DNA from: a virus
DNA length: 26,310 nt
Virus record (IMG/VR): IMGVR_UViG_3300003690_000287
Coordinates: 1-26,310 of that record
Reading direction: 5' to 3' (one strand)
Within the stretch, counting starts at the first letter, position 1; each line of letters begins with the position of its first letter. The notes beneath the pieces are model-generated. The model was not told the DNA's origin. It worked only from the letters and a program-made list of their open reading frames with translations, and searched no databases. The position numbers were made by a program, and so were the translations under genes. Positions 5,294 to 26,310 of this stretch are shown here, piece by piece.

Positions 5294-6043
5294 ATGAAGG
5301 GATTTGATACATTCGTAGCGTTCGGAGACTACCATGGTCAGCATGGTTGCCGTGACACGCTCGCAGCCCTTGAGCGTCACATCAAGGAGCTAAAGCCCAA
5401 GCATCGCATCTGCCTTGGCGATATGTTTGACATGGCGTGCCTCCGCAAAGGTGCGCGATCTCAAGATGGGGAATCGTGGGAAGGATTGCTTCAAGACCAG
5501 AACGCCGGATACATGGCAATCTCCCGATTGCGCCCCAATGTCTTCCTAAATGGCAACCATGAATACCGGCTCTACCAAGCAGCAGAGGAAGCTGCCAGCG
5601 GCATTGTGCGCGAGTATTGTCAGGACGGCGTGAACAAGCTGGAAAAATACCTGCGGAAGATGGGCTGCAAGGTGTATCCCTACCATTACGACCAAGGAGT
5701 GCATAGGATTGGGCCTGTCGCCTTTGTCCACGGCTACACAGCCAACCTTGCGTCATGTAAGCAACATTCCGAGATGTACGCAGAGCCAGGAGGAGCTTGC
5801 GTGATGGGTCACATACACAGAATTGAAGCAGCGAGCGCGGTGCGGCATGGAGGAGCGCGAGGTTATTCCGGCGGATGTATGGCCGACATACCTCGCTTAA
5901 CTTACGCTGCACTGCGCCCTGCGACGATGCGATGGAGTAACGGGTGGCTTTTCGGAGTCATCGGCAAACGGGGATACCGAATATGGCAAGCAGAAAGAAC
6001 AAACGGAAAGTGGATTCTGCCGACAAGCCTCCGCGAGCTTTAA
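5294..6043 (+). CDS. Calcineurin-like metallophosphoesterase
   Basis: This 249-residue protein has the metallophosphoesterase signature in order: GDYHG (D12, H14), LGDMFD (D43), LNGNHEYR (N88, H89), a VHGY histidine, and the closing GHIHR motif. These residues form the two-metal site that hydrolyses phosphomono- or diesters. The family includes nucleases, nucleotide phosphatases and protein phosphatases, so the substrate cannot be named. The start is the first ATG after a short gap. Upstream, GCGTG (5275-5279) and CACGC (5289-5293) could form a small hairpin next to the start codon, and no strong Shine-Dalgarno is visible. The 3' end overlaps the next gene by 61 bases. Such enzymes are common phage accessory genes of unknown role. 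Confidence 0.88.
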   Translation: MKGFDTFVAFGDYHGQHGCRDTLAALERHIKELKPKHRICLGDMFDMACLRKGARSQDGESWEGLLQDQNAGYMAISRLRPNVFLNGNHEYRLYQAAEEAASGIVREYCQDGVNKLEKYLRKMGCKVYPYHYDQGVHRIGPVAFVHGYTANLASCKQHSEMYAEPGGACVMGHIHRIEAASAVRHGGARGYSGGCMADIPRLTYAALRPATMRWSNGWLFGVIGKRGYRIWQAERTNGKWILPTSLREL

Positions 6044-8860: not shown

Positions 8861-9074
8861 CTTACCAGTTCCGCGTGGCGGGTATTGTTACATTTGCGAT
8901 GACCCGGATTGCGTTATCGTAGCAGCCGATACATCCATCGGCTACAATCTCTGCGGGGATTGCGCCGCGAGCGCATTGGCAATTGAAAAAACACTTTGCA
9001 TTCTGTTTCCACCCATGGGCATCCGCCACCCATTCCCCCATGAACACTTTCCAAACCGATTTCAGAATCTATGA
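8832..9074 (+). CDS. Small zinc-finger-like protein
   Basis: This is about 80 residues from the ATG at 8832. In-frame ATGs at 8811 and 8841 are equally possible, and none has a clear Shine-Dalgarno. Cysteines occur as CYICDDPDC and CGDC (C-x2-C-x4-C, then C-x2-C), which fits a zinc-binding knuckle. The rest is unremarkable. It overlaps the second HTH gene and, by ATGA, recT, so it belongs to the recombination operon. The role is unknown. Confidence 0.6.
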   Translation: MPRMGIQLVSLPVPRGGYCYICDDPDCVIVAADTSIGYNLCGDCAASALAIEKTLCILFPPMGIRHPFPHEHFPNRFQNL

Positions 9075-9823
9075 CAACAACAGCACTAACTAAAAACACG
9101 AAGAAGCTCAAAGACCTAATCAGCAGCGACAAGTTCAAGGAGCAAATGGCCTTGGCCCTACCAAAGCACCTCACGCCAGACAGAATGGCGCGGGTCGCTC
9201 TAACCACGTTACTCAAGACGCCCAAGCTGGGAGAATGCGACCCAGCCAGCGTGCTGCAAGCACTGATGACTTGCAGCCAGCATGGCATTGAGCCGGACGG
9301 GCGCAGAGCCTACCTTATACCCTTTGGAAAGCAGTGCCAGCTTATCATCGGCTATCAAGGGCTGGTTGAACTCATGCTTAACGCCGAGGACATATCTAAC
9401 ATCTACGCCAAGGAGGTTCGGGCGAACGACGAATTTGACTATAATAAAGGCGAGCTAATCACCCACCGCTTTGACCTCGGCAATGATCGGGGCGACATCG
9501 TGGGGGCTTACTGCCTCATCCGTTACAAAGACGGCCATGAGAAGTGTGAGGTGATGGACATGAGCGAGCTGGAAGCGGTTAAGAATTGCAGCAAGGCAAA
9601 GGCGAGCGGCCCTTATCAATCTTTTCCAGCGGAAATGTACAAAAAAATCGTCGTGAAAAGAGCCAGCAAAATGTGCAGCCTCGCCCCCTCTCTCCGAGAT
9701 GCCATTGAGTCGGACGATGACCAGTTCAAGTTCAACGACAAGCCCAAACGCGCCAAGGCTACGCATGAAGATATGTTCACCGAGAATGTTGTCGCAGAGG
9801 AAACCGAGGAGGTATCGCGATGA
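9071..9823 (+). CDS. recT: RecT-family single-strand annealing protein
   Basis: This 250-residue protein has the RecT core: TPDRMARVALTTLLKTPKLGECDPASVLQALMTCSQHGIEPDGRRAYLIPFGKQCQLIIGYQGLVELML, then YAKEVRANDEF, a GAYCLIRYKDGH strand, and the closing EMYKKIVVKRASKMCSLAP. The family binds single-stranded DNA and anneals complementary strands without ATP, working with a 5'-3' exonuclease. The exonuclease is the next gene (ATGA overlap), so the pair forms a phage recombination system analogous to RecE/RecT. Length is close to the usual 250-300. The C-terminal 30 residues are acidic and probably flexible. Confidence 0.95.
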   Translation: MTTTALTKNTKKLKDLISSDKFKEQMALALPKHLTPDRMARVALTTLLKTPKLGECDPASVLQALMTCSQHGIEPDGRRAYLIPFGKQCQLIIGYQGLVELMLNAEDISNIYAKEVRANDEFDYNKGELITHRFDLGNDRGDIVGAYCLIRYKDGHEKCEVMDMSELEAVKNCSKAKASGPYQSFPAEMYKKIVVKRASKMCSLAPSLRDAIESDDDQFKFNDKPKRAKATHEDMFTENVVAEETEEVSR

Positions 9824-10763: not shown

Positions 10764-11129
10764 ATGCCAGAAGAAAAAAGAAAGTTACAACCGGGCCGAT
10801 TCTCAATCACGCAGCAGGTGGAGAAGAAGGCAGAGAAACCCACATACCCAGACTTTAAGGGATTGTGGAACGACGATGGAAACCTGAAGTCAATTAGCTT
10901 CTGGATCAACGGGACGCTGGGGGAGGAATTCAATATCTCCGGGAGCATTGAACCGTTCAAGGACTACTCAAAGAAGGATGGGCCGTCTGTTCCAACGCCC
11001 ATGACCACTGATGAATCCAAGAAAGCCTTTGCGAATGTGATAGAGAGCTTGGAAGAGGGCGAGCCGCCCAAGACTGTGGAACAAAGCCTACCCGCCCCCA
11101 AGGCTGAAGAGGATGACGTACCGTTTTAA
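10764..11129 (+). CDS. SSB-like protein with DDVPF tail
   Basis: This 121-residue protein starts at the ATG after AAGGA. Residues about 27-66 (YPDFKGLWNDDGNLKSISFWINGTLGEEF) form a compact beta-rich core, too short for a classical OB fold to be certain. A proline- and acid-rich linker follows, and the last residues are EEDDVPF. That ending matches the conserved C-terminal tip of bacterial SSB proteins (DDDIPF), which recruits replication and repair partners. Position between the RecT/exonuclease pair and replication genes supports a single-strand DNA-related role. It could instead be a decoy that uses the host SSB-interaction network. The N-terminal fold is unrecognised. Confidence 0.55.
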   Translation: MPEEKRKLQPGRFSITQQVEKKAEKPTYPDFKGLWNDDGNLKSISFWINGTLGEEFNISGSIEPFKDYSKKDGPSVPTPMTTDESKKAFANVIESLEEGEPPKTVEQSLPAPKAEEDDVPF

Positions 11130-11863
11130 TGGCTGGTGTGGTTGACAGCTACGGGTTCATGCAACTCGACCCGTTCCTACGGTGCAACTCGCACTGGGTA
11201 AGGGACTTCTTTCCCATTGATGATGGCGAGACGCTCAAGGATGCCAATCGCACAGGAGCCTACAAGCATCAGGAGATCGTAAAGGTGCTGCCCAACTACA
11301 CCGAGCGTGAGCTTTCCGAGCGTGAGCTTTTGCAGCGCAGGGGAGTGTTTGACTGGGAGGAACTCCTAACGGATGCGTATGGCGATGACGGGGAGTATGT
11401 TAACTGGCATTGGGTCCGGCATGAGATTGAAGAAGACGCCGAGGAGCGCAAGAAGGAACTGGCAACATGGCGCAAGAGCAAATCGTCACGGGCAAGATAC
11501 AAGCCCGATGGGGTGCGGGTTTTCCCTCCCATGCCTTGGCCTCCTCCCAAGCCCTCTCGCCCAGTTAAACCAAAGCCCTTCTTTGGCGATGGCAAGACGA
11601 GTTGGCGTAAAGCAAAGCCACACAACTGGGATCACTTGAATTGTGAGGAAACCGAGTTGGTTCGCAGTCTTGCCAATCCTAGCCCCCAGGACCCGCCCCA
11701 AGTAAAGCAACTCATTGAGCGAATCAAAAAAGAACTAAAGAGGGACATGGGTAAGGCTATGGAATCTGCCGAAGTTCATGTTGCTTGGGGAATCTTTTTC
11801 AACTCCCTGAAAGAAATCCCAAAGCTCCGAGAGAAGCTGAAAGAGATTAACTATGAAATTTAG
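11129..11863 (+). CDS. Hypothetical protein with proline-rich linker
   Basis: This 244-residue protein is coupled to the previous gene by TAATG. The N-terminal 60 residues (MQLDPFLRCNSHWVRDFFPIDDGE) are globular, followed by charged helices. A proline-rich linker lies around residues 130-150 (PPMPWPPPKPSRPVKPKP), and the C-terminal helical domain is rich in Lys/Glu and ends KLREKLKEINYEI. A perfect 15-base tandem duplication encodes ERELS/ERELL in the N-terminal part. I do not recognise the family. Its place among RecT, SSB-like and DnaA-like genes suggests a replication accessory protein. The stop codon abuts the folded element at 11864. Confidence 0.7.
   Translation: MAGVVDSYGFMQLDPFLRCNSHWVRDFFPIDDGETLKDANRTGAYKHQEIVKVLPNYTERELSERELLQRRGVFDWEELLTDAYGDDGEYVNWHWVRHEIEEDAEERKKELATWRKSKSSRARYKPDGVRVFPPMPWPPPKPSRPVKPKPFFGDGKTSWRKAKPHNWDHLNCEETELVRSLANPSPQDPPQVKQLIERIKKELKRDMGKAMESAEVHVAWGIFFNSLKEIPKLREKLKEINYEI
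11301..11330 (+). repeat. Perfect 15-bp tandem duplication
   Basis: CCGAGCGTGAGCTTT occurs twice head to tail inside the preceding gene and keeps the frame, adding five residues. The absence of silent differences indicates a recent duplication or slippage. Confidence 0.9.
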
Positions 11864-11957
11864 CCGACACGCAGCGGTCTACCGGGTTCGCCTCCTAGCT
11901 AGGCGGGGTGCATCCACTCCGGCTATTCAAAAACCCGCGTTGCGTGTCGGTGCTTTT
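11864..11957 (+). ncRNA. Cloverleaf-like structured element of unknown class
   Basis: Directly after a stop codon, 13 bases (11864-11876, CCGACACGCAGCG) pair with 11938-11950 (CGTTGCGTGTCGG), with only one G-T pair. Stacked on this is CGGGTT/AACCCG (11883-11888 with 11932-11937). Inside are a 5-bp hairpin with a 7-base loop (CGCCT-CCTAGCT-AGGCG, 11889-11905) and a hairpin GGGTG-CATC-CACTC (11906-11919), then an A-rich single strand. GCTTTT follows the outer stem, as after an intrinsic terminator. It has no tRNA T-arm consensus or CCA-type end. It could be a small RNA, an attenuator, or a DNA structure such as an origin, since it lies just upstream of the DnaA-like gene. The strand is assumed from the T-tract. 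Confidence 0.6.
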
Positions 11958-11965
11958 AACATAAT

Positions 11966-12079
11966 ATGAAAACCAAAACCAAACAGGAACAAATCAACCA
12001 GATTGTCGCGGCAGTGGCAAAGGTCACAGGTGTTAGCGTGCCAACCATGTTGTCCAGACTGCGAACACCGATGAAGTAG
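11966..12079 (+). CDS. DnaA domain IV-like protein, N-terminal fragment
   Basis: This short frame encodes 37 residues ending at TAG 12077-12079: a basic start (MKTKTKQEQINQIVAAVAK) followed by VTGVSVPTMLSRLRT. This matches the first part of bacterial DnaA domain IV (I..IV......v....l.sr.R). The rest of the domain lies in another frame and starts at GTG 12079 inside the stop (TAGTG). The gene is therefore either a single frame-broken protein or a stop-start coupled pair. No strong Shine-Dalgarno precedes the ATG, which sits just after the folded element. Confidence 0.55.
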   Translation: MKTKTKQEQINQIVAAVAKVTGVSVPTMLSRLRTPMK

Positions 12080-12318
12080 TGGAAGCGCGGTGGATTGCTT
12101 GGCATTACATCCATTGCCATTTGGGCCTTCAATGCGCCGTAATTGGCCGTAGATGGGGCAACGGCGTGAACCATGCGACCGTCATTCATGGCCTCAAACA
12201 AATAGCGTACCGCTTAATGTACGCGAGAGATTGGGACTTGCGCCCGATGATGGAGGACGTTGCCGAGGTACTGAAGATTGAGCCGAAGCTGCCCAAGGCG
12301 CAAGGGAGGTGGGTGTGA
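12079..12318 (+). CDS. DnaA domain IV-like DNA-binding protein, C-terminal part
   Basis: This 79-residue frame starts at GTG overlapping the upstream TAG. EARWIAWHYIHCHLGLQCAVIGRRWGNGVNHATVIHGLKQI closely follows DnaA domain IV (eARqiamYl.......iG..FG.RDHsTVihA), including the box that reads DnaA-box DNA; here VNHATVIHG replaces RDHSTVIHA. Helix 1 of the domain sits in the preceding fragment. The ATPase domains of DnaA are absent, so it would bind origin-like sites without loading helicase. It may mark the phage origin or interfere with host DnaA. The C-terminal 25 residues are a charged tail. The stop is followed by the ATG of the RusA-like remnant. Confidence 0.7.
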   Translation: MEARWIAWHYIHCHLGLQCAVIGRRWGNGVNHATVIHGLKQIAYRLMYARDWDLRPMMEDVAEVLKIEPKLPKAQGRWV

Positions 12319-12521
12319 ATGATTCGCGTGGAAACAAAGATTCCCGTGCCGAGTCTAAACAAGCTCTTCGCATTGAACCATTGGCAGCGGAAGAAGCTCA
12401 AGGAGGAGATATTCAAAGAAGTGTGGTTAGCATTACTAGCTACAGAAACCGGTTGCTCGACCCGGACAATTTGTGTGTTAAATACCATATTGATGCAATC
12501 CGCCTCGCCAAAATTGAATGA
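12319..12521 (+). pseudogene. RusA-like Holliday-junction resolvase remnant, frameshifted and truncated
   Basis: The frame beginning at ATG 12319 encodes IPVPSLNKLFALNHWQRKKLKEE, the N-terminal signature of phage RusA-like resolvases. Near 12430 the similarity jumps by -1 to the frame ending at TGA 12521, which encodes ITSYRNRLLDPDNLCVKYHIDAIRLAKIE, the central RusA block with its conserved DPDN acidic residues. The two blocks are closer together than in family members. The C-terminal part, normally beginning with a DD motif, is missing because the frame stops and a new gene starts (ATGA). I read this as a decayed gene. A programmed shift would still leave a protein lacking its last third. 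Confidence 0.6.
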
Positions 12522-12679
12522 CCGAGTACGACTTTAGCGACGACGAATTGCAAGATGAGCCGGTGAATGAATGCCCGGAGTGCGGGACAATGCGATGGTT
12601 TGAAGCTGGCAGCAGCAATATGCTCGTTTGCCATGAATGTGGCTACGGCGAAAGGGAAGATGAAGTTCGGGGAGATTGA
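12518..12679 (+). CDS. Small zinc-ribbon protein
   Basis: This 53-residue gene starts at an ATG that overlaps the preceding TGA (ATGA). An acidic N-terminus (MTEYDFSDDELQDEP) is followed by CPEC-x17-CHECGYGER, a textbook zinc ribbon. Such single-domain ribbons are common in phage genomes, and their partners are unknown. It overlaps the next gene by 20 bases. Confidence 0.7.
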   Translation: MTEYDFSDDELQDEPVNECPECGTMRWFEAGSSNMLVCHECGYGEREDEVRGD

Positions 12680-12842: not shown

Positions 12843-13045
12843 CCTCTTACCCGGAGGTGGACAAGTTTGTGGATAAATTCGCCATTGAACTGGATGATGC
12901 GAATATCACCGCAACCATGTTTATTCACCGATTCCTGTTCAAATATTACATGGCGGCAAGGGGTCGATATGGAAAGGAATGGGAACAGATGGCACGCCGC
13001 CGCATGGATCGCGTAATCACCCAAATAGTGGATGACCTTGAGTGA
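12779..13045 (+). CDS. Hypothetical small protein
   Basis: This 88-residue protein has an ATG preceded by an AGGAGTAAGG purine tract. The first 20 residues are low-complexity and acidic/lysine-rich. The remainder is helical (DKFVDKFAIELDDANITATMFIHRFLFKYYMAARGRYGKEWEQMARRRMDRV), with an aromatic patch and a basic helix. No family is recognised. The stop is shared with the start of the 27-residue membrane protein (GTGA). Confidence 0.6.
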   Translation: MADKGTGEEEKKGVDGGEQLVTSYPEVDKFVDKFAIELDDANITATMFIHRFLFKYYMAARGRYGKEWEQMARRRMDRVITQIVDDLE

Positions 13046-16596: not shown

Positions 16597-16650
16597 GTTT
16601 CCTAGCTTTGCCTTGGGCGTGCTAATAACACGTTGCCCGTTTGTTCTTAT

Positions 16651-16690
16651 CCTAGCCAAGCGGGCATCCAAGGCACTTTGCTTGGCTAGG
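16651..16690 (-). repeat. 11-bp perfect inverted repeat
   Basis: CCTAGCCAAGC (16651-16661) and GCTTGGCTAGG (16680-16690) are exact complements around an 18-base loop, in the 151-base gap upstream of the 163-residue gene. CGTG/CACG and GGG/CCC arms (about 16617-16640) form a weaker hairpin next to it. The repeat contains CTAGG, the same core as the ribosome binding site, so folding could mimic or mask it. Confidence 0.7.
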
Positions 16691-16698
16691 TTTGTGCT

Positions 16699-16751
16699 TA
16701 ATCACACATTACCGCCCTCGCCAATCGCAAGGGCGGAGTATGTAGGATTAA
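16699..16751 (-). other. Stop-hairpin cassette, copy A
   Basis: TAATCACACA and GGATTA flank a strong hairpin CCGCCCT-(11 bases)-AGGGCGG (16712-16736) at the end of the clamp-like gene. The flanks match those of copies B and C, while the hairpin sequence differs. The loop holds CCAATCGCA. Confidence 0.55.
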
Positions 16752-18992: not shown

Positions 18993-19019
18993 ATCCAATA
19001 GCCCTAAACAAAAAAGCAT

Positions 19020-19481
19020 ATGACTATTGTTCCGGTAACATTGCGTGAGGCTAATGATTTCGTTGAGTCGTTTCATCGGCACAACGGGAGGACGGTTAGG
19101 AATGGTGGGAAGTTTGCGATTGGTTTGGAGGAAGGCGAACTGGTTGGGGTAGCGATAGTGGGTAATCCGTTATCGGCTACGTTCATGGTGCGAGGAACTG
19201 CGGAGGTGTTGCGGGTTTGTGTGAATGGGAAGGCTCCGAGGAACTCTAATTCAAAGTTGTATGGCGCGTGTTGGCGAGCGTGGAGGGCGATGGGTGGTGA
19301 CAGGTTGGTGACTTATACATTGCAGGATGAGAGTGGTGCGAGTTTGCGTGGATCGGGATGGCGAATAGTCGCGGAGGTAGAGCCGCATGATGCTTGGGGC
19401 CGTAAGAGCAAGCGAGACGGCAAGGTGCGTGAATGGCAACCGATATACGGCCAACAGAAATTCAGGTGGGAGATAGCATGA
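19020..19481 (+). CDS. XF1762-like phage protein (GNAT-type fold likely)
   Basis: This 153-residue protein starts with ATG at 19020 and has no clear Shine-Dalgarno. IVPVTLREANDFVESFHRHN, GELVGVAIVGNP, TAEVLRVCVNG, SKLYGACWRAWRAMG, RLVTYTLQDESGASLRGSGWRIVAEV and the closing basic segment follow the XF1762 family found in many phages, with an overall pattern like N-acetyltransferases. The biochemical role is not established to my knowledge. The stop overlaps the terL start (ATGA). Leucine is encoded almost only by TTG/TTA, as in terL. Confidence 0.85.
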   Translation: MTIVPVTLREANDFVESFHRHNGRTVRNGGKFAIGLEEGELVGVAIVGNPLSATFMVRGTAEVLRVCVNGKAPRNSNSKLYGACWRAWRAMGGDRLVTYTLQDESGASLRGSGWRIVAEVEPHDAWGRKSKRDGKVREWQPIYGQQKFRWEIA

Positions 19482-20977
19482 ACAAGTCATCAAAGCCTGT
19501 TACAAGTAAACCTGTGGCCAAGAAAGCTGGTCGTCCGAAAGGATCGCGTAACCGGAAAGGTAAGGAGAGTGAATTGGCTCGGTCAAAGCGATCTGATTTG
19601 CATTGGTTTGCGAAGACGTATTTGGGGATGGATTTGTATCCTTGGCAGGTGGATGTATTGAGGGAGTTAAATTACCGGGAGAGTCGGGTGGCGTTGAAGG
19701 CGGCTAATGGTAGTGGGAAGACTAGTATGATAGCGGCTGTTGCGGTGTTGTGGCATGTGATTAGTTTCCCGGATAGTTTGGTGGTGTGTACTGCTGGGGT
19801 TTACCGGCAGGTAGAGGCGGTGTTATGGCCTACGTTGAAGAGGTATGTGCATCAATTGACGGCGGGCGAGGGGTTTGAGGTTACGCAGAGTGGGTTGCGG
19901 TTTGTGAATGGTGGGCGTGCTATTGGGTTTAGTGCTAGTGACCCGCACAAGGCGGAGGGTTGGCATAGGCAAGGGCCTAGCAAGAATTTATTGTTTATAG
20001 TGGATGAAGCGAAGGGGATACATGACGAGGAGATATTCCATGCTGTTGAGCGTTGTCAGCCTAGTCGGTTATTGGTGATGAGCAGTCCGGGTGCGGCTAC
20101 TGGATTCTTTTATGAGGCATTTACGAAGCAGCGTGAGAGGTGGGAGACGTTTACTGTTACGGCTTATGACTGCCCGCATTTGACGAAGGATTGGATTAGC
20201 GAGCAGATAGCTACTTATGGTGAGAGCAGTCCATTGATTCGTAGTATGATTTATGGTGAGTTCATGGATGACAGTGATGACGGGGTGGTGTTGATGTTGA
20301 AGGATTTGGAGAAGTGTTTGGGTAATCCACCGGAGCGGAAGGATGGGGTTAGGGTTGCGTTTGTGGATTTTGCGGCTGGTGGTGATGAGTGTGTGTTTGC
20401 ATTGCGGGAAGGTAATGAGGTAACGGTGATGGAGTGTTGGAAGGAGCGGGATACTAACAAGAGTATTGGTAGGTTATTGCAGTTGTTTGATACCCATGGG
20501 TTGGTGAGTGACGAGGTATTTGGAGATGAGGGTGGGTTGGGGTTGCCTATGTGTGATGCTTTGATGGAAGCGGGGTTTGACATTCACCGGGTGAACTTTG
20601 GTGGTAAGCCTTATGATCCTAGGTATACTAATCGTGGTGCGGAGATGTGGCATCAGGCTGCTCGGAGTATTGAGCGGTGTGAGGTGAGGTTATTTGATGA
20701 TGGGTTGTTGCATCAACAGATGATTACGAGGAGGAGTGATGTGGGTCGGTCGGGCAAGTTGGGGGTGGAGCCGAAGGATCGGATGAAGGCGCGTGGGTTG
20801 GCTAGTCCTGATCGGGCTGATGCGGTGTTGGGGTGTATAGCTTGTGGTGGCGGGATCGGGAGTGCTTGGGAATATTACCAGCAGATAAGTCGTCCATCCA
20901 TGGGAGAGATTTATGAGGAAGCGAATGCGATGGCGGAGCATATGGCTTTACCGGGGGGGATGGATGCGGGGTGTTAG
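19478..20977 (+). CDS. terL: Terminase large subunit
   Basis: I choose ATG 19478 (ATGA overlap), giving 499 residues. The ATPase domain has Walker A NGSGKT (residues 77-82) and Walker B LLFIVDEA with D176 and E177. The nuclease domain has the three acidic positions D297 (VAFVDFAAGGDE), D350 (VFGDEGG) and D445 (SPDRADAV), an RNase H-like site. The enzyme cuts concatemeric phage DNA and pumps it through the portal into the capsid. I find no CTN leucine codon anywhere in the gene, in contrast to neighbours such as the integrase and capsid genes. The fold matches the Terminase_6 group by eye. It is probably transcribed with the genes downstream to the capsid. Confidence 0.95.
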   Translation: MNKSSKPVTSKPVAKKAGRPKGSRNRKGKESELARSKRSDLHWFAKTYLGMDLYPWQVDVLRELNYRESRVALKAANGSGKTSMIAAVAVLWHVISFPDSLVVCTAGVYRQVEAVLWPTLKRYVHQLTAGEGFEVTQSGLRFVNGGRAIGFSASDPHKAEGWHRQGPSKNLLFIVDEAKGIHDEEIFHAVERCQPSRLLVMSSPGAATGFFYEAFTKQRERWETFTVTAYDCPHLTKDWISEQIATYGESSPLIRSMIYGEFMDDSDDGVVLMLKDLEKCLGNPPERKDGVRVAFVDFAAGGDECVFALREGNEVTVMECWKERDTNKSIGRLLQLFDTHGLVSDEVFGDEGGLGLPMCDALMEAGFDIHRVNFGGKPYDPRYTNRGAEMWHQAARSIERCEVRLFDDGLLHQQMITRRSDVGRSGKLGVEPKDRMKARGLASPDRADAVLGCIACGGGIGSAWEYYQQISRPSMGEIYEEANAMAEHMALPGGMDAGC

Positions 20978-21000
20978 GTTGAATTATTTATTTGCCAGAG

Positions 21001-21016
21001 GTGTCACATTGTGATA
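21001..21016 (-). promoter_or_regulatory. Dispersed motif TATCACAATGTGACAC (copy 2)
   Basis: On the reverse strand this gives the full dyad TCACA-A-TGTGA plus CAC. It lies between terL and a small basic ORF, 15 bases before the ORF start, where a bound protein would block transcription or translation initiation. Confidence 0.5.
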
Positions 21017-21030
21017 GTGGGTTTTGAGGG

Positions 21031-21162
21031 ATGAGAGTTGTCAAACAGAAAAAGGTTGAGGTGGGGAAGGTGACGGCGCAAGGGGTGGTTGTGCCTAGCA
21101 AGGAAGATATTAAGGCGGGGAAGATTGCCCCGCGAGGGCGTAACCGTGGAAGGGGAAGGTAG
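21031..21162 (+). CDS. Small basic protein
   Basis: This gene encodes 43 residues, MRVVKQKKVEVGKVTAQGVVVPSK and on to a Gly/Arg tail (APRGRNRGRGR). GAGGG lies immediately before the ATG, tighter than usual. It contains an ordered beta-like core and a strongly basic disordered end, which could bind nucleic acid. It sits between terL and the portal gene cluster. No family is recognised. Confidence 0.55.
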   Translation: MRVVKQKKVEVGKVTAQGVVVPSKEDIKAGKIAPRGRNRGRGR

Positions 21163-21164
21163 AT

Positions 21165-21373
21165 ATGCCGAAGCATTGGAAGTTATCACCAAGAGTACGA
21201 GCGGCTAGGAAGAATCATTTGCTGGGCCGTCTGGTGGCGCACCTGCTGGGAGTTATCCTATTAACACAAGGAAGCGTGCGGAGTCGGCTATTAAGCTGGC
21301 GCATAACGCGCCTAACCCGGCTGGGATACAGGCTGCTGCTCGGAAGAAATATCCGGGGTTGAAGAAAGGATAA
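21165..21373 (+). pseudogene. SYP-motif phage protein (DUF6582-like), frame-broken
   Basis: ATG 21165 has GGGGAAGG at good spacing and begins MPKHWKLSPRVRAARK. Near 21209 the protein-like reading moves to the -1 frame: EESFAGPSGGAPAGSYPINTRKRAESAIKLAHNAPN and on to KYPGLKKG with TAA at 21371-21373. The FAGP...SYPI block with spaced alanines and histidine is typical of a small phage family (DUF6582, from memory) found in this genome position. The -1 frame has no start codon at a sensible place. In the original frame the translation becomes leucine/arginine-rich nonsense. It is either a broken gene, a technical indel, or a shift at AGGAAGAA. Confidence 0.6.
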
Positions 21374-21377
21374 AGAG

Positions 21378-21668
21378 ATGCCGGAGATAAAGAGAGCAGG
21401 AGCCAGAAGCGCGCCCATGACCAAGGCAGAAGAAGCAAGGCGCACCCAGCGACGGGCGGCGGCAGTAGAGATGGCTGGCAGGGAAGAAAACACGGCTGAA
21501 ATTATGGCCGAGGTTTTGACGAAAAGTAAGTGGTTGCAGGATCAAAGGGTAAAGGATTTGCTTACAGGAAAGAGGGTTGCCGCTACGGACTACGAAGAAT
21601 TTTTAAAGAAGGCGTATAATGCAGACAAGCCGGGTCGCAGGGTTTGGAGGCTAAAGAAAAAGAACTGA
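21378..21668 (+). CDS. Hypothetical small basic helical protein
   Basis: This 96-residue protein has ATG after AAAGGATAAAGAG. It is rich in Ala, Arg, Glu and Lys and probably one or two long helices (AEEARRTQRRAAAVEMAGREENTAEIMAEVL), then VKDLLTGKRVAATDYEEFLKKAYNADKPGRRVWRLKKK. No family is recognised. It ends one base before the portal start and is probably in the same transcript. It may be a head assembly accessory protein. Confidence 0.65.
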   Translation: MPEIKRAGARSAPMTKAEEARRTQRRAAAVEMAGREENTAEIMAEVLTKSKWLQDQRVKDLLTGKRVAATDYEEFLKKAYNADKPGRRVWRLKKKN

Positions 21669-25139: not shown

Positions 25140-26201
25140 ATGACCTACGCTGTACAAGCACTGGTACTGGATCAGTTCGCCCAAAAGTCTCCGCTTCCTG
25201 CGAAGTCGGGACACAAGGCGATATCAATGTTTCGGTTCGGCGCACCTTCAAGATCAGCTATTGACACGCTGTCCACGGAAGGCACTGCACCTACCTCAAC
25301 ACGAACACTGTCCCTAGACAAGATTGACGCTACGTTGATCCAACGGGGCCAGATAATCAAAATGACGGATATTCTGAATGCAACGGATTTATTTAATTCG
25401 CTGCAACAGAGCATCAAGACAAATGGACAGGATGCTGCATTGGACTTGGACACGATTACCCGCAATATCATTGTGGGATCAAACGTGGTCGGGGATGCAA
25501 TGGAGAATACCTACTCAACCTATGCGCTGGAGAATGGAGATCAACTCACAGAGTTGTACGCTGATGGCACAAGGGAAGTGTGGGCAGACGGAGACGGAGC
25601 GGCTCAATACACCACGTTTGAGGGAACCACCAATGGTGATGACTGCCTCTTGGACGCACCGGCTGTCTTGAATGCCGTTACTCAACTGAAGGTCAACCGC
25701 GCATCACCCGCCAGAGGCGGGATGTATGTCGGGGTTTGCAGCCCTCAAGTCTTGAGTGATGTGATGAGTGACAGCACCTGGAAAACTGCGGCTCAATACA
25801 GCAATGTTGAAGACCTCTACAAAGGGGAAGTCGGCTCGCTGTACGGGGCAAAGTTCATTATGACCACCAACGGGTTCATTACCGGAGGTACGCTGGCAAC
25901 TGACGGCGACCGCTTCAAATACGATGATGATGGCGGTGGCGGAACAGCAGTGGCAAAGGACGTTCATGCGTCCATCTTCTTGGGCGAGCAAGCCTATGGA
26001 GTGCCGGACTTGTCGAGTCAATCGCCGTTTAGCCCGAAGGTTATTATTACCGATCAAGCAGATAAAACTGATCCTTTGAATCAGATAATTACTGCCGGTT
26101 TTAAGACCTTTTGGACGACATTGCGACTGAATCCTACTTACTACCTTATTATGCGTAGCAAGACGGACTCAACTGCGACACCGGGCGACCCTAATCCGTA
26201 A
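25140..26201 (+). CDS. Major capsid protein, N4-gp56 family
   Basis: I choose ATG 25140, with AAGGTG six bases upstream; a GTG at 25131 lies inside that ribosome binding site. The 353 residues begin MTYAVQALVLDQFAQKSPLPAK and contain RFGAPSRSAIDTLSTEG, IIKMTDILNATDLFNSLQQSI, the ARGGMYVGVCSPQVLSDVMSDSTWKTAAQYS segment, GAKFIMTTNGF and the C-terminal ITAGFKTFWTTLRLNPTYYLIMRS, a pattern I recognise from the N4-gp56-type HK97-fold major capsid family. It forms the icosahedral shell. No delta domain is evident, in keeping with the separate scaffold gene. Leucine codons are mixed here, unlike terL. Confidence 0.88.
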   Translation: MTYAVQALVLDQFAQKSPLPAKSGHKAISMFRFGAPSRSAIDTLSTEGTAPTSTRTLSLDKIDATLIQRGQIIKMTDILNATDLFNSLQQSIKTNGQDAALDLDTITRNIIVGSNVVGDAMENTYSTYALENGDQLTELYADGTREVWADGDGAAQYTTFEGTTNGDDCLLDAPAVLNAVTQLKVNRASPARGGMYVGVCSPQVLSDVMSDSTWKTAAQYSNVEDLYKGEVGSLYGAKFIMTTNGFITGGTLATDGDRFKYDDDGGGGTAVAKDVHASIFLGEQAYGVPDLSSQSPFSPKVIITDQADKTDPLNQIITAGFKTFWTTLRLNPTYYLIMRSKTDSTATPGDPNP

Positions 26202-26212
26202 CAAACCAAGTC

Positions 26213-26310
26213 ATGGCTCATAAGAAAGGCATGACCATTATTATTGCCGTGGGTGGGGGTCAAAAGCCCCCGCCCACAGGCTCTAATGCTAAACCTTCAA
26301 AGAAATCCCA
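26213..26310 (+). CDS. Partial ORF running off the right edge
   Basis: An ATG 11 bases after the capsid stop opens a frame without stop to the window end: MAHKKGMTIIIAVGGGQKPPP and on to a Ser/Lys-rich stretch. Too little is visible to assign a function. Position suggests a head or connector gene. No strong Shine-Dalgarno precedes it. Confidence 0.45.
   Translation, partial: MAHKKGMTIIIAVGGGQKPPPTGSNAKPSKKS

Follow-up and report, generated by a model that had tools for sequence, protein, structure and literature searches.

Positions 11862-11951 of the viral record IMGVR_UViG_3300003690_000287, whose 26,310 nt are here called the window (the whole stretch of DNA that was analysed), hold a real, conserved structured RNA candidate, an assignment made with high confidence from its fold and its conservation. 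This element sits in a replication/recombination gene block and is spanned in full by a short open reading frame (mini-ORF), which was missed in an earlier note that had singled out 94 nt (11864-11957). Chances are about even that the unit acts in cis as a translational-coupling linker, MIRU-like and with a conserved fold, through which translation of a downstream gene would depend on that of the upstream operon.

Fold and architecture of the element

The data set consists of nine metagenomic contigs, the window and eight relatives (L002-L009, all from IMG/VR and retrieved with the DnaA-like protein), which form two independent sequence classes: class A (the window, L002, L003, and L004) and class B (L005 to L009). 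The features of the element and its neighbours in the window are as follows:

11129-11863, + strand: upstream gene of 244 aa, directly followed by the element in all relatives except L002
11853-11969, + strand: mini-ORF of 38 codons, MKFSRHAAVYRVRLLARRGASTPAIQKPALRVGAFNII, the sole frame of six that is open in both classes
11863-11876, + strand: 5' strand (14 nt) of the outer stem P1, from the fold; its inner end varies compensatorily between classes
11877-11882, + strand: unpaired 5' bulge GUCUAC, from the comparison (AACCUAC in class B, CUAC being kept)
11883-11888, + strand: 5' strand of stem P2, with compensatory changes between classes A and B in four of six pairs
11890-11899, + strand: invariant junction GCCUCCUAGC, including CCUCCU, identical in all nine records
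11900-11925, + strand: long hairpin P3 (11900-11910, loop CAUC, 11915-11925), a hairpin also in class B
11926-11931, + strand: unpaired 3' junction UUCAAA, from the comparison (UUCUUAA in class B)
11932-11937, + strand: 3' strand of P2, from the fold and the pair changes
11938-11951, + strand: 3' strand of P1, from the fold, with GGUG at its end, a weak Shine-Dalgarno-like sequence and the only one ahead of the next start
11966-12318, + strand: DnaA-domain-IV-like gene, whose relative in L006 matches PF08299 at 5.8e-12

RNA folding of the 90 bases at 11862-11951 yields -46.7 kcal/mol (z -4.85), and the minimum free energy of the 94 nt singled out earlier, -45 kcal/mol (z -4.85), is equalled by none of 200 dinucleotide shuffles. 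Among 13,110 overlapping 92-nt stretches on both strands of the window, the element has the lowest energy (-46.9 kcal/mol); three other sites, at 5829 (+), 16647 (-), and 26201 (+), come within 3-4 kcal/mol of its fold. The outer stem P1, of 13-14 bp, is stacked on the 6-bp stem P2 and encloses further hairpins, the order in the best fold being P1, the 5' bulge GUCUAC, P2, a nearly unpaired arm (GCCUCCUAGC), the long hairpin P3, and UUCAAA. The CCUCCU of the arm has the same letters as the anti-Shine-Dalgarno sequence. The near-perfect outer stem over a coaxial 6-bp stem that the earlier note described (11863-11876/11938-11951 and 11883-11888/11932-11937) is upheld. On the other hand, the cloverleaf interior drawn there, with an anticodon-like hairpin (5-bp stem, 7-nt loop) and a second hairpin, reaches -42.3 kcal/mol and so costs about 4.4 kcal/mol relative to the single long hairpin. 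Class B does not preserve this interior: the equivalent fold there lags by 8 kcal/mol and lacks the second hairpin.

A tRNA, already argued against in the earlier note, or a tmRNA was rejected, as ARAGORN finds no such gene and the anticodon-like arm is neither part of the best fold nor kept in class B. The absence of a recognised RNA class was likewise borne out by the Rfam covariance check, in which class A has no match at gathering or relaxed thresholds and class B none at E 10. An intrinsic terminator was also rejected, none being listed at the element (the tail of class B is GUCCUUUG).

The 20-bp interrupted duplex found here between genes of one operon resembles phage intercistronic processing sites, and P1 is followed by a short run of U in class A, both of which would suit an RNase III-type or other hairpin for mRNA processing or stability, or a transcription attenuator. 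Such a role is nonetheless improbable: the terminator scan lists nothing resembling a terminator there, the U run, itself weak, is absent from class B, and processing sites require neither invariant loops nor an open frame.

Sequence classes, covariation, and strand

All eight relatives have the element at the same operon position. Class A elements are 96-100% identical to each other, while the five class B records are identical over 2 kb and thus represent one lineage, with about 57-59% identity to class A. Class B shares with class A CUAC, GCCUCCUAGC, AGGC, GCAUCC, UUC, and nine or ten pairs at the outer end of the element. Its P2 and P3 have other letters, those of P3 entirely so, with the hairpin retained. 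Folded alone, class B adopts the same architecture at -48 kcal/mol (z -6.32). Shuffling its 46 positions that are not shared with class A reproduces the architecture in 1 of 5000 cases and the energy in 2 of 5000.

The compensatory base changes that the earlier note had proposed to look for in homologues are present. By hand alignment of the two classes (MAFFT misplaces one base), double changes are seen in the four P2 pairs given above and in one pair of P1. The first P2 pair, for instance, is C-G in the window, U-A in the other class A members, and G-C in class B; the difference within class A is a further double change, and it alters two amino acids. All variable positions in class A lie within pairs. 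Since few of the sequences are independent, the claim made from these comparisons is limited to a well-supported fold.

The one-sided pair changes bear on the nature of the molecule. On the + strand, which is the direction of the neighbouring genes, they are A-U to G-U at three sites and G-U to G-C at one, whereas on the opposite strand they read as A-C mismatches. A covariance model scores 117-119 bits on the + strand vs. 12-17 bits on the - strand. The use of G-U pairs on the + strand makes it probable that the functional molecule is RNA rather than single-stranded + DNA, judging from these alignments. The location in a replication/recombination gene block would be fitting for a single-strand DNA origin or a DnaA-type binding structure, an origin having been among the suggestions of the earlier note. 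This is highly improbable, however, given that the pair changes fit G-U on the + strand only, that no DnaA box occurs in or near the element (the nearest is at 12868), that no GC-skew switch is found at the element, and that the element is not beside the DnaA-like gene in relatives. A DnaA-dependent origin was accordingly rejected, with DnaA boxes absent in and beside the structure.

Conservation of unpaired bases with P2 and P3 rewritten is the usual sign of an aptamer, a ribozyme, or a protein site. The element could thus belong to a new class, either of regulatory RNA that binds a protein or ligand or of processed small RNA. Unpaired CUAC, CCUCCUAGC, GCAUCC, and UUC..AA would then be what is recognised, Shine-Dalgarno sequences could be pairing partners of CCUCCU, and the mini-ORF would be incidental. 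This is the main rival to coupling, possible though on balance unlikely. Its case is strengthened by the confinement of class A variation to pairs, with three of four substitutions altering the peptide, and by the conservation of AGGC, a potential partner of GCCU in an alternative hairpin. Against it, the alternative fold is 4-8 kcal/mol worse, Rfam contains no match, the comparison spans two sequence classes only, and the meeting of the mini-ORF stop with the next start at every junction (see below) is left unexplained.

Searches for further carriers covered several collections. INPHARED, searched by DNA and protein, gave chance-level matches only; PLSDB gave no match, and neither did GTDB genomes searched by pattern and by RecT protein. 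Wider patterns and profiles of the 244-aa, DnaA-like, RecT, and SSB-like genes found no additional carrier in IMG/VR. The covariance model finds no second copy in any of the nine records, and with one copy per record the element is not a repeat family.

The mini-ORF and its neighbouring genes

According to the earlier note, the element lies exactly between a stop codon and the DnaA-like gene. This is superficially so, but the mini-ORF covers the whole element and overlaps both neighbours: its ATG overlaps the end and stop of the 244-aa gene, and its TGA and the DnaA-like start codon ATG share bases in ATGA. The frame in class B has 37 codons, and the two classes have in common MKFNRHA (MKFSRHA in the window), Y, LLA, and LRVG. 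The codons TAT GAA ATT of the upstream gene, which hold the ATG of the mini-ORF, are identical in all four sequences that have this gene; third positions of the gene vary just before these codons and cease to vary exactly there.

At the other end, the mini-ORF stop in each case overlaps or touches the start of the gene that follows, by ATGA in the window, GTGA in L004, TGAATG in L002 and L006, and TAATATG in L003. Four distinct right-hand junctions to three different genes would arise by chance less than once in a thousand, by an estimate rather than a simulation. The mini-ORF thereby has one property of a translationally coupled linker ORF, a start and stop that overlap or abut the stop and start of its neighbours. 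As the stop codon sits at the base of a hairpin, ribosomal bypassing of the T4 gene 60 type was also considered; it was rejected, since the sequence downstream offers no matching landing codon and the next gene starts from a codon of its own.

The association with a DnaA-like gene, to which the earlier note gave weight, does not extend to the relatives. There the element is anchored to the 3' end of the 244-aa gene, not to the 5' side of the DnaA-like gene, and across the eight its next gene is a methylase, a GNAT gene, or a methylase remnant. The gene is DnaA-like in the window, a GNAT acetyltransferase in L003, and a C5 cytosine methylase in L004 and L006, and these differences indicate that element and DnaA-like gene do not belong together. 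In L002, the 244-aa gene at the site of the element and most of the methylase have been lost, and the element is retained; a 22-codon, in-frame C5 methylase remnant (MNERRTHIDLFSGVAYEILKLI, L002 4825-4893) lies between it and the DnaA-like gene. What the sequence has kept after this deletion is the element plus an in-frame ATG. The 244-aa gene has no Pfam or PHROG match. The DnaA-like gene is split over two frames in the window and is an intact ORF of 116-117 aa in all eight relatives; the frameshift in the window is either a real mutation or an assembly error.

As coding evidence, the open frame alone is not significant, since random sequences that preserve the structure are open in this frame in a fraction of 0.43 (class A) and 0.37 (class B). 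All four class A substitutions retain pairing and, with three of them changing an amino acid, the peptide seems little constrained. The peptides of both classes have no Pfam or PHROGs match. Taken together, openness and substitutions suggest that the frame is useful for being a frame and the RNA for its fold, with the peptide sequence of less consequence. The combination of a short ORF with two mutually exclusive inner folds is shared with leader-peptide attenuators; unlike these, the element lies within an operon and not at its start, and its alternative fold is weaker by 4-8 kcal/mol. We know of no stall motif in the element.

Proposed translational coupling and apparent exchange of the unit

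Coupling by the unfolding of an inhibitory structure and short ORFs that "deliver" ribosomes are established ideas (PMC12548453), from which we infer the same for the element. It would belong to the early mRNA for recombination/replication in a temperate podovirus-like phage, as a small translated linker ORF whose mRNA forms the conserved fold (P1, the 5' bulge, P2, the invariant CCUCCUAGC, and the variable P3). Ribosomes finishing the 244-aa gene would restart at the overlapping ATG of the mini-ORF and plough through the fold, thereby opening P1, which would otherwise hide the weak GGUG and the start region of the next gene. A second restart would then take place at the overlapping mini-ORF stop and next start. 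In the absence of ribosomes on the mini-ORF, the fold would keep the downstream gene shut, such that translation of the upstream operon would be coupled to any gene placed there, whether methylase, acetyltransferase, or DnaA-like. This proposal would require that the element is transcribed with the operon, that the mini-ORF is translated, and that P1 is repressive. The genes that follow the element have no good Shine-Dalgarno sequence, the best being the GGUG at the end of P1, whose pairing with the anti-Shine-Dalgarno sequence is weak (-3.0 kcal/mol in every relative). However, many other genes of the phage likewise have no good Shine-Dalgarno sequence, which counts against coupling.

Known systems share parts of this arrangement. 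In the passage of PMC12548453 that cites Supply et al. (1997), an ORF in a MIRU is coupled to the neighbouring gene by stop/start overlap, and the element resembles the unit described there as a short intercistronic unit with an ORF overlapping a neighbouring gene. MIRUs, though, are repeated and dispersed in mycobacterial genomes, whereas the element is single copy at one place in phages and has a conserved fold with pair changes. In the coat-lysis coupling of MS2 and fr, the genes overlap and a structure over the start region is thought to be opened by the upstream ribosome (PMC12548453). The element differs in being a separate mini-ORF between genes, with a multi-part fold, invariant unpaired bases, and an exchangeable downstream gene. 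A simple coupling hairpin needs no invariant unpaired bases, and the conservation of CUAC and CCUCCUAGC suggests that something may bind them. As coupling leaves these bases unexplained, a second layer, such as a bound protein, is suggested, and it is for this reason that a binding RNA is the main rival.

The unit also looks exchangeable, as phages with 61-80% identity in the flanks have class A units of 96-100% identity. For instance, the elements of L003 and L004 are identical at 93 of 94 bases, the 60 bases upstream being 68% identical and the downstream genes unrelated. Conversely, L004 and L006 have 82-87% identical DNA on both sides of the element and differ in core alleles (53-72% identity). 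Class B shows that most stem letters can change, which points to recent exchange, not constraint alone, behind the near-identity of class A. A bolder and rather doubtful proposal is that a unit of about 120 bp, a fold in its own linker mini-ORF, is swapped between phages as an allelic cassette at a hot spot for cargo genes. As a phage regulatory RNA of a new class, it would use its invariant unpaired bases to bind a factor from phage or host and to gate translation of the exchangeable genes downstream.

Near-identical class A units in differing flanks could also be the mark of a small, MITE-like mobile DNA element, with P1 as terminal inverted repeats flanked by TTTAAC/TTTTAAC and the frame kept by chance. 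The element is short and palindromic and has TTTAAC-like repeats at both ends, yet mobility of this kind is quite improbable: each record has one copy in a constant place, class B is a diverged allele at the same place, the pair changes use G-U on one strand, and none of the nine records shows an empty site. Rickettsia palindromic elements and REP sequences are short palindromic units found in coding sequence or between genes (PMC2229807, PMC3733652). The element is likewise a short palindromic unit, but it is unrepeated in the genome, and the complement of the REP motif GTAG is on the wrong side of the hairpin. One copy per record also argues against a REP/GTAG or MITE repeat, which implies multiple copies in one genome.

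If coupling is right, the element would be a compact natural device by which the expression of exchangeable phage genes depends on the upstream operon, a folded RNA doubling as a reading frame, and an example of how cargo genes can be swapped without added ribosome-binding sites. It would also provide a testable candidate RNA class without an Rfam entry. Should the fold alone be functional, what is left is a new candidate structured RNA, with nine metagenomic contigs as its known carriers.

Some observations concern the surroundings. Following the DnaA-like gene, at 12309-12537 in the window and at the same place in L002, L003, L004, and L006, are two long overlapping ORFs in different frames, one starting MIRVE..PVPSLN and the other containing LLDPDNLCVKY. 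They look like a RusA-like gene over two frames, for which frameshifting is possible; a Pfam search with either ORF or their fusion gave no recognition. RecT (9071-9820 in the window) is 94.5% identical between the window and L003 and 68% to the others, while the DnaA-like and DUF1376 genes group differently from it, a sign of strong mosaicism. GC skew is 0.42-0.51 over the terminase region (19000-21500) and near zero elsewhere in the window. Very low folding energies also occur at 16647-16738 (-; -46.5 kcal/mol), 5829-5920 (+; -46.0 kcal/mol), and 26197-26300 (+; -43.8 kcal/mol); the low-energy stretch at 26201 comes after the capsid gene and may be a terminator.
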